64,000 bases of DNA from Microgenomates group bacterium (lineage in GTDB: Bacteria; Patescibacteriota; Microgenomatia; UBA1406; GWC2-37-13), in contig JARYMT010000002.1 in NCBI GenBank assembly GCA_029906985.1, positions 62,001-126,000 on the forward strand, in the 5' to 3' direction. Positions 57,494-59,913 of this stretch are shown one piece after another. Every line of letters starts with the position of its first letter. Position 1 is the stretch's first letter. The notes under the pieces were generated by a model. That model was not told the origin of the DNA. It searched no databases and was given only the letters and a program-made list of their open reading frames with translations. Position numbers and translations under genes: made by a program.

Positions 57494-57916
57494 ATGAATT
57501 GGTTTGTTGCCGCTTTTTTATCAGCTTTTTTTGCCGCTCTGACAGCTATTTTGGCAAAAATTGGTATTAAAAATATAAATTCCAATCTGGCGACGGCAGT
57601 AAGGACAATCGTCATACTTGTTTTTGCCTGGGGAATTGTTTTTTTCCAGGGAGGAATCAAAGAAATTAATTCTATCCCAAAAACTTCACTGCTTTTTTTG
57701 ATATTGTCAGGCATCGCCACTGGTTTGTCTTGGCTTTTTTATTTTTATGCCCTCTCGGTCGGTCAGGCGTCAAAAGTCGCTCCCATTGATAAATTAAGCT
57801 TGGTTTTGACTATTATTTTAGCCGGTCTTATCTTAAAAGAAAAAATCAGCCTGCCAATTATTCTCGGAGGGTTATTAATGAGTCTTGGAGCAATCCTTAT
57901 CGGCTTAGCTAAATAA
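57494..57916 (+). CDS. Single-domain EamA-family transporter
   Basis: 140 residues with five membrane segments, one EamA unit: FVAAFLSAFFAALTAILAKI, then ILSGIATGLSWLFYFYALSV and APIDKLSLVLTIILAGLILK. Half-size EamA proteins of this kind are complete genes that pair as dimers. A TATAAT lies about 29 nt before the ATG. It converges on the zinc-ribbon gene, with 7 bp between the stops. The 234 bp upstream of it hold nothing I can name. Confidence 0.85.
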   Translation: MNWFVAAFLSAFFAALTAILAKIGIKNINSNLATAVRTIVILVFAWGIVFFQGGIKEINSIPKTSLLFLILSGIATGLSWLFYFYALSVGQASKVAPIDKLSLVLTIILAGLILKEKISLPIILGGLLMSLGAILIGLAK

Positions 57917-57923
57917 ACATTTT

Positions 57924-59051
57924 CTAATTTTGATGTTTTCCACAAGTGAATGAATAGCCGCAATAAGGGCACCTAGCTTTCCATGTCGCTGGCGAATCTT
58001 TCTTTTCTCCCTGAATTTTTTGATGGCAGCTGGGGCATTCGTAATCTTCATAACGATCAGTTTCTTCCTTTTTTTGAAAAAATTTACCGGATAATAACCG
58101 GTAAAGACTTGAATCAGCCGTTATCACACTTCGCCAATGATTATAGAAAACTCCCAGACTTTCTTCTATCTCCTGCTGCGAAACTGTACCGCCGCCGCAT
58201 CCGGCGCTTAAATCAGTGATTTTTTGTCCGGTTGATAATTGATGGTAATAAACCAAACTTAAATAACCTCTCCTGACTGCTTCAGCAATCAAATTCTCTT
58301 CTAAAGCCAGCTGCCTTGCCAAATTTTCAATTGTTTTATCGTAAGATTCCAACCAAGTAGTTTGTCCTGTCTGAAGGGCATAATTGATTTCCCGCCATAA
58401 ATCCTGAAGATAAAAAACCCTTTCGCCGTTATCGTGAACCAGGATATTTGGCAGGCTGTCCAAATAATCTAGAAAATCTTCCATTGATAAATTGGTTAAT
58501 AGAGGAGAGGAGAGAAAATAATAAATTTTTTCTCTTTCATTTTTTATTTCTCGATAACCATTGCCAAAAATTAATTTTAAAAATTCTTCATTGGTAAAAG
58601 CAATTGGCAGGCCGACAACTTTTTTTCCTAAATTGACATAAATTATCAATTGATTGAAAGGGTAATCCACCTCGGTAAATTCATTTTCGTTTCCTCCTTC
58701 GAAAGCCCCTTTTCCTTTTGGTGAACACCATAAAACTACCCTTCCGGGATGATTAACTAAAAAGTTTTCAATTGCCAAAAAACTAGTTCGCGCCACTCCT
58801 TCCCGTTCGCGCTCATCAAATAAATCAACCGCCAGCTCTTCCTTTTCATCGCTGTCAACAAAAAGCCTCTGATTTTTAATTCGATAAAAATAAGGGGCGG
58901 AGATTACCCATTTGGAAAGCATTTCGCTGGCAAAACTTGAAAGCGACCGGCGGAATAATCTTTCTCTTTCCCCAATTGACAAACCAGCCAATTGAGCGGC
59001 TTCTTCAGCCGACCGAAATCCAAATTTTAAAAATTCCCGACAAACAGTCAT
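57924..59051 (-). CDS. Uncharacterised zinc-ribbon protein under a cobalamin riboswitch
   Basis: 375 residues from ATG 59051, which has a Shine-Dalgarno-like AGGGA 5 nt upstream, rare in this window. The frame is open to 59075, but that part is riboswitch expression platform. The first 120 residues are charged and helical (KFGFRSAEEAAQLAGLS, GERERLFRRS). A middle part has HPGRVVLWCSPKG and LIIYVNLGKKVVGLPIAF. A Gly-rich AGCGGGT segment lies near residue 305, and the C terminus is a zinc ribbon (YECPSCHQ and ARCPYCGYSFTC). No membrane segment or known catalytic motif is visible. I do not recognise the family. B12 control suggests a role in cobalamin uptake, salvage or a B12-dependent step. Confidence 0.8.
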   Translation of the reverse strand: MTVCREFLKFGFRSAEEAAQLAGLSIGERERLFRRSLSSFASEMLSKWVISAPYFYRIKNQRLFVDSDEKEELAVDLFDEREREGVARTSFLAIENFLVNHPGRVVLWCSPKGKGAFEGGNENEFTEVDYPFNQLIIYVNLGKKVVGLPIAFTNEEFLKLIFGNGYREIKNEREKIYYFLSSPLLTNLSMEDFLDYLDSLPNILVHDNGERVFYLQDLWREINYALQTGQTTWLESYDKTIENLARQLALEENLIAEAVRRGYLSLVYYHQLSTGQKITDLSAGCGGGTVSQQEIEESLGVFYNHWRSVITADSSLYRLLSGKFFQKKEETDRYEDYECPSCHQKIQGEKKDSPATWKARCPYCGYSFTCGKHQN

Positions 59052-59077
59052 ATTTTTCCCTGCGCGGGGAGCCATTT

Positions 59078-59235
59078 TCCCTGATCGGTCTTCGGGCTTA
59101 TTCCAAAAATCTTAATCAATTTGTTAAGATTTTTGGAAATTACCGCTGCGGCACAGCCCCGGATTTTCACCGGCGTTCCCAAAAATTAAAAAGCCTTCCC
59201 ATCGTCTAAAAAAAGACAGTGGCTTAATCAGGTTG
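59078..59235 (-). promoter_or_regulatory. Cobalamin riboswitch, compact form
   Basis: Read on the minus strand, the core is GGGAACGCCGGTGAAAATCC, then GGGGCTGTGCCGCAGCGGTAA, ending in the B12-box-like AAGCCCGAAGACCGATC. P1 is CCTGAT (59227-59232) with ATCAGG (59080-59085). The part that usually carries P7-P10 is one simple hairpin (CCAAAAATCTTAA...TTAAGATTTTTGG, about 59104-59137). The P2 region contains AAGCCACTG...TGGGAAGGC. A GGGA, UCCC, GGGA series follows (59078-59081, 59067-59070, 59057-59060), the last being the Shine-Dalgarno of the next gene. This fits translation control by alternative pairing. Confidence 0.87.
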
Positions 59236-59307
59236 TCAAAATTTTTAACTTTAAAATAATAATCAAAAAAAATTTTTTTTTCAATAAAAAATGTTAAAAT
59301 TAAAAAA

Positions 59308-59913
59308 ATGGATTATTATAAAAAAAAGCTTTTTATCCCCCAAATTAATAAAAATGATGGGCTTATCGGCAAAATAGAGAGATGGCAGGCCCATCGGCAA
59401 GCTATTCTTCATCGCGGTTTCACTACGATTATAAAATCAGGAGACAAAATTATCCTCCAAAAACGGAAACATCCGGTTTTTGACGGCGTATATGACCTTT
59501 CTTTTTCTTCTCACCCGGTATTTATACAAAATCAGCTCCAAACAATGGAAGAGGCGGTTTTAAAAACATTCCAAAGGGAGTGGTTAGTCGGAAGAAATGC
59601 CGAAATTAAAATAAAATTTTTAGATAAATATTATTACCGGGCGGCGGATAAAAAAAGCGGTTATTTTGAACACGAGATCAATTATTTATATTTAATTGAT
59701 TTTTCCGGAGAAATCAGCGACAATCCTCAATTTAGTTATCAAATGAAAATCATCACCATTAAAGATTTTTTTTCAAAGTTTAACAAGATCAATCTGGCCC
59801 CGTGGGTAAAAAAACATTATTTAAATTTTCTTGGCTATCCACCAGCCAAACAAAAACCCACCAATATGGGCAAACCAAGCCACTCCGCCCTGATTGATGT
59901 CAAAAGTCACTAA
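59308..59913 (+). CDS. Isopentenyl-diphosphate isomerase-like Nudix protein
   Basis: 201 residues. KIERWQAHRQAILHRGFTTI, IILQKRKHPVFDGVYDLSFSSHPVF and MEEAVLKTFQREWLVG line up with type 1 IPP isomerase (W-x-x-H, lQkR, SHP, then a modified Nudix helix). The usual Cys of N-T-C-C-S-H-P is Ser (SFSSHP), so the standard catalytic Cys is missing; another Nudix activity is possible. The last 31 codons run antisense over the end of the rhomboid gene. TAAAAT sits 7 nt before the ATG. It is divergent from the riboswitch gene. Confidence 0.75.
   Translation: MDYYKKKLFIPQINKNDGLIGKIERWQAHRQAILHRGFTTIIKSGDKIILQKRKHPVFDGVYDLSFSSHPVFIQNQLQTMEEAVLKTFQREWLVGRNAEIKIKFLDKYYYRAADKKSGYFEHEINYLYLIDFSGEISDNPQFSYQMKIITIKDFFSKFNKINLAPWVKKHYLNFLGYPPAKQKPTNMGKPSHSALIDVKSH

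Follow-up and report, generated by a model that had tools for sequence, protein, structure and literature searches.

An unrecognised zinc-ribbon protein family behind a cobalamin riboswitch in Patescibacteria, probably part of coping with B12 shortage

Which function does a cobalamin (B12) riboswitch serve in a reduced genome when the gene behind it belongs to no named family? The question is raised by a locus in a 64,000-nucleotide stretch of DNA (here called the window) from a genome of 953 kb (98% complete) near Candidatus Roizmanbacteria (Patescibacteria). The gene, defined by its open reading frame (ORF) and its homologs, lies at 57924..59051 on the minus strand and encodes a protein of 375 residues. 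It stands alone, with both neighbours on the plus strand (ORFs for an EamA protein at 57494-57916 and for a 201-residue product without Pfam match at 59308-59913), and its codon usage matches that of nine neighbouring genes (r 0.90). A preliminary description had placed a cobalamin riboswitch directly before this gene, had named nothing in its product except a C-terminal zinc ribbon, and had proposed a new B12 salvage, binding or B12-dependent function.

The riboswitch was corroborated by covariance search, in which cmscan reported an RF00174 aptamer at 59066..59224 on the minus strand (50.8 bits; gathering cut-off 31.5). The match is complete over model positions 1-189 (E 9.7e-10, search of the whole window) and contains the B12 box AGCCCGAAGACCGATCAG at 59098-59081 (minus strand); no other RF00174 match was found in the genome. 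Upstream of the riboswitch, a consensus scan proposed a weak sigma-70-like promoter (TTGAAA-17-TATTAT, 10/12 matches; 59256..59284, minus strand). The ATG at 59051 is the preferred start codon, because it follows a conserved CAGGGA by a few bases, whereas an alternative in-frame ATG at 59075, which would give 383 residues, falls inside the aptamer. The gene is the direct target of the riboswitch.

The 3' end of the leader reads CCC-CGCGCA-GGGA-AAAAT-ATG and holds the P13 hairpin (CCC-CGCGCA-GGG; 59058..59069, minus strand), the 3' arm of which is the Shine-Dalgarno sequence CAGGG(A). Most relatives share the hairpin, with an invariant CGNGCA loop shortly 5' of the start codon, and the stem occurs as CCC/GGG, TCC/GGA, TCT/AGA, TTT/AAA or CCT/AGG. 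Both sides of the stem were changed in 23 cells against 7.8 expected from shuffles, a count biased towards structure by the choice of hairpins that form several pairs, and slid versions scored worse. The window contains the 21-nt hairpin/Shine-Dalgarno/ATG motif a single time, and all 100 shuffles lack it. A proposed L5-side partner of the P13 loop, TGCCG (59149..59153, minus strand), is complementary to it with one base bulged, yet both elements hardly vary among relatives; the putative kissing pair is read from this complementarity. Since the covarying P13 stem has the ribosome-binding site as its 3' arm, the layout implies a translational OFF cobalamin riboswitch, with the response to ligand deduced from riboswitch class and hairpin, and the 375-residue protein would be made when adenosylcobalamin is scarce. 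The aptamer, the B12 box and a P13 hairpin containing the Shine-Dalgarno sequence are shared with RF00174 riboswitches under translational L5-L13 control. However, the target lies outside the known genes of B12 regulons, and this is the sole such riboswitch detected in the genome.

Helices make up the N-terminal part of the protein; then come a small core of alpha/beta type with the conserved R and S-P-P, the cysteine of a G-x-C motif and, at the C-terminus, a ribbon with five Cys. Within the G-x-C-(G/P) motif, which is conserved, Cys285 (58197..58199, minus strand) forms an invariant column in alignments A2 and A3. The zinc ribbon named in the preliminary description (CPSC...CPYC...C) is real, with Cys339, 342, 361, 364 and 370 (57942..58037, minus strand) each invariant or at least 90% conserved and AlphaFold confidence moderate. 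No Pfam or NCBIfam model reached its cut-off, in agreement with the earlier failure to name a domain, and the sub-threshold matches were zinc ribbons only; curated families such as L37Ae and Zn_ribbon_4 gave at best 15.3 bits against a cut-off of 87, or 13.8 against 29. Among hits up to E 10, neither PF02310 (the B12-binding domain) nor another Pfam B12 family matched, and the reductase barrel PF02867 had no match in the protein, the genome's NrdJ being a separate gene. No match was obtained in a PDB sequence search, PHROGs and PADLOC searches returned nothing significant, and nothing was found in the phage records searched; a phage or defence gene was rejected for lack of any match. The protein appears soluble: hydropathy over 19 residues peaks at 1.39, and neither a signal peptide nor a membrane segment is evident. 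A part of an ECF transporter was rejected on this solubility and because EcfT, looked for in the window genome, was not found.

The window protein (pLDDT 82, pTM 0.69) and a 300-residue member from another taxonomic family (pLDDT 85, pTM 0.74) were modelled with AlphaFold and share a common order of helices, short strands, helix, three strands, helix, helical region, G-x-C and ribbon. Foldseek gave no significant match for the former against PDB and BFVD, or for the latter against PDB. The alpha/beta core of the 300-residue model leans weakly to PAS-like sensor domains such as DosP/EcDOS, PpsR and LOV (probability up to 0.89, E about 0.04, not significant). The family has no sequence similarity to these sensors and carries additional helical and ribbon parts.

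Scanning the genome collection directly with the protein returned no relatives, because these share only about 23-30% identity. By whole-genome search, relatives at this level of identity over long matches were found in 20 further genomes belonging to the same family and order, and profile searches extended the set further. RF00174 or RF01689 lies directly upstream in 18 of the 19 protein-selected loci, the nineteenth starting near a contig end with its upstream region cut off and the hairpin retained, and the family gene stands behind the riboswitch in 27 of the 29 riboswitch-selected loci (L022-L050), the two sets having some genomes in common. The exceptions are L022 (metE) and L048 (a short ORF). 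L022, also read as L123 (G076 contig 12), lies on a contig of 4.2 kb that may be a contaminant, and its riboswitch before metE is very strong (98.7 bits); L048 (L124:8428-8634, minus strand) is a 49-bit riboswitch before a low-complexity ORF of about 68 residues, with no family member. Across the class, an RF00174 match is present in 112 of 233 genomes, nearly always exactly one each. Beyond the family and order of the window, 44 RF00174 loci were read. A usable gene was present in 42, and 29 of these genes joined the same protein family by single-linkage sequence comparison; the rest are mostly long proteins without significant relation, or DUF4430-DUF6580 directly. Shared ancestry beyond the zinc ribbon was indicated by profile-profile comparison of the order-level set with the class's other families after removal of the ribbon (E 2.9e-22, probability 99.5).

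The recurrence of the pair bears on whether the leader could be a decayed riboswitch and the protein unconnected with B12. The riboswitches of several relatives score under the Rfam cut-off, which would fit decay. However, hairpin, loop and Shine-Dalgarno sequence are retained with compensatory changes, the pair persists across dozens of genera, and in two genomes, each at least 98% complete, which keep nrdR-nrdJ-pduO-c2-trx, the family gene and the riboswitch are missing together. Decay is accordingly judged very improbable. G008 carries a divergent family member without detectable riboswitch, and in another genome that had been scored as lacking the riboswitch, a weak AdoCbl-II match precedes the family member.

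The family conserves the five C-terminal Cys, the G-x-C with its invariant Cys, a single R, and an S-P-P that follows a strand. Mean pairwise identity over 13 genomes is 20% for the family, against 70% for NrdJ, 65% for NrdR, 53% for thioredoxin and 48% for PduO. At least three unlike spacing types of the C-terminal zinc-ribbon module occur within the family (C-termini of alignment A1), as if the module had been swapped. Patescibacteria are commonly epibionts, and high divergence could reflect changing partners if the protein were a host- or neighbour-directed factor that obtains cobalamin from partner cells. The lack of an evident signal peptide or membrane segment speaks against export, zinc ribbons are typical of cytosolic proteins, and such a factor is considered unlikely.

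The reliance of the organism on adenosylcobalamin gives the riboswitch its context. NrdJ, the adenosylcobalamin-dependent ribonucleotide reductase, is the sole reductase detected in the window genome; searches there for the class III reductase NrdD and for class I R2 found neither, and the making of DNA precursors is thus expected to require adenosylcobalamin. The organism is B12-dependent, a point absent from the preliminary description. Elsewhere among the loci read, an NrdD gene contains an intein (L119:10106-13222), and some nrdJ genes (G003, G030, L229, L231, L233) look broken by long in-frame insertions. The general logic of B12 riboswitches, which elsewhere govern metE and nrdAB, would favour a B12-independent substitute that supplies deoxynucleotides or bypasses NrdJ, and a riboswitch before metE surfaced in the same searches (L123). 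However, hits to the 375-residue protein, whatever their score, included no reductase, radical-enzyme, nucleoside-transferase or kinase family, the protein matches no fold, and we regard this reading as quite improbable; an alternative reductase in particular was rejected on size and lack of match.

Gene order ties the family to NrdJ. Among 37 genomes that contain both, 20 have nrdJ in the same orientation as the riboswitch, its end lying 1.1-5.1 kb upstream, and the usual order is nrdR, nrdJ, pduO (for the adenosyltransferase PduO), riboswitch, family gene and c2, followed by trxA on the opposite strand. This order is also seen in named records of Roizmanbacteria; those of Levybacteria have nrdJ-pduO-family-c2. 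The comparison with homologs proposed in the preliminary description was thereby run, and they recur with a B12 riboswitch and beside nrdJ and pduO; the contrary pattern named there, homologs that lack riboswitches and fall into a well-known family unrelated to B12, was not seen. In the window genome, the island reads nrdR-nrdJ-pduO-DUF4430-DUF6580-c2 with trxA opposite; it lies on another contig and has no riboswitch, the family gene being elsewhere. The c2 product (125-176 residues, about 140; e.g., L088:2528-2938) has no Pfam match, lies near nrdJ with homologs in 17 of 20 loci, and combines a low-complexity N-terminus with a conserved C-terminal amphipathic segment ('SS.RWL...').

The same proximity to nrdR-nrdJ feeds the main rival explanation, in which starvation induces the protein as a partner or brake: bound to NrdJ (or to NrdR, or to the replication machinery), it would protect, inhibit or re-tune its target until the cofactor returns. 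NrdJ of these genomes carries a C-terminal Cys-rich tail (CPSCG..EGCKKCYGCGYSEC), and the family has a CxxC...CxxC...C ribbon at its own extreme C-terminus, the last Cys lying at most two residues from the end in half of the members. The family ribbon resembles the NrdJ tail (hhalign probability 86%) more than the NrdR ribbon (11%), a weak hint given that zinc ribbons look alike through common Cys spacing, and the family lacks the reductase barrel. Rapid divergence would suit an interaction protein; however, NrdJ is conserved at 70% and its supposed partner at 20%, and uptake candidates in the riboswitch slot of several families point to supply. On balance, a partner or brake is less probable than a role in supply.

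These uptake candidates are a DUF4430 protein (transcobalamin C-terminal-like) and a DUF6580 membrane protein, which are paired in the nrdJ island (e.g., L088:2893-3875). The riboswitch directly drives DUF4430-DUF6580 in three loci (L168, L170, L200) and a long protein together with DUF4430 and DUF6580 in two others (L119, L194). B12-binding proteins of animals carry DUF4430 C-terminally (PMC4350170). We infer that DUF6580 is a transporter, because of its membrane character and because it adjoins nrdJ or the riboswitch in most relatives that have it, and DUF4430-DUF6580 is a candidate system for B12 capture and uptake. The window genome encodes PduO, DUF4430 and DUF6580 on a contig other than that of the riboswitch gene, and PF02310 had no match in this genome. 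In Gottesmanbacteria-like genomes the family gene is replaced by riboswitch-linked proteins of 560-760 residues (L102:8080-9774, L171, L178, L193, L200, L119, L187), two of which had no Pfam match when tested; in comparison with the family, hhalign probability was at most 19%.

Taken together, the protein is probably part of how B12-dependent cells cope with B12 shortage, and its predicted role, to which we assign a probability of about 0.5, is to support the supply of adenosylcobalamin to NrdJ during starvation. This supply role is deduced from gene order, the status of NrdJ as sole reductase and the swapping of the riboswitch slot with uptake candidates, and it rests on DUF4430-DUF6580, with or without the long protein, taking that slot elsewhere. 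It is favoured by the single riboswitch per genome, nearly one-to-one with the family, by the P13 covariation and the closeness of nrdJ, and by the joint absence of family gene and riboswitch from two island-bearing genomes. It is weakened by the lack of a known cobalamin-binding fold or motif in the protein and by a divergence far faster than that of neighbouring genes, which is unusual for an enzyme. The riboswitch-free uptake candidates on another contig of the window genome and the G008 member also count against it, and B12 uptake by DUF4430/DUF6580 is itself putative. Of the functions first proposed, salvage stands as the best guess; the standard B12-binding domain is absent.

Mechanistically, bound adenosylcobalamin would dock L5 on the P13 loop and hide the Shine-Dalgarno sequence; when the cofactor is low, this sequence would be free and the protein made. 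The protein may then capture, de-ligate or reduce, or hand over scavenged cobalamin ahead of PduO, so that NrdJ would be kept supplied. In the least certain step, Cys285 and the ribbon thiols would plausibly be held reduced by the neighbouring thioredoxin. BtuM is a thiol-based cobalamin transporter, in which Cys may bind or de-ligate cobalamin; the idea of a working Cys is shared, but the family protein is not membrane-embedded and no homology was seen. In its most specific form, offered tentatively, the proposal is a soluble thiol/zinc-ribbon protein of new fold, made only in adenosylcobalamin starvation, which provides the adenosyltransferase and the class II reductase with scavenged cobalamin by capturing or activating it, and which replaces known processing and trafficking proteins in much of Patescibacteria.

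B12 riboswitches control reductase genes in other bacteria, and here too the B12 level would be coupled to the ribonucleotide reductase system. Unlike in those cases, the switch does not act on the B12-dependent NrdJ, an alternative reductase was looked for and not found, and the controlled gene encodes a new protein. The literature searched held no link between a B12 riboswitch, this family and Patescibacteria, and no description of how B12-dependent Patescibacteria acquire or manage B12. Patescibacteria are numerous and poorly cultured, and one family, unrecognised by all libraries searched, appears to be the sole riboswitch-controlled B12 gene in an adenosylcobalamin-dependent cell. The finding names a single gene for testing and connects the sensing of a vitamin with DNA synthesis in organisms of reduced genome.
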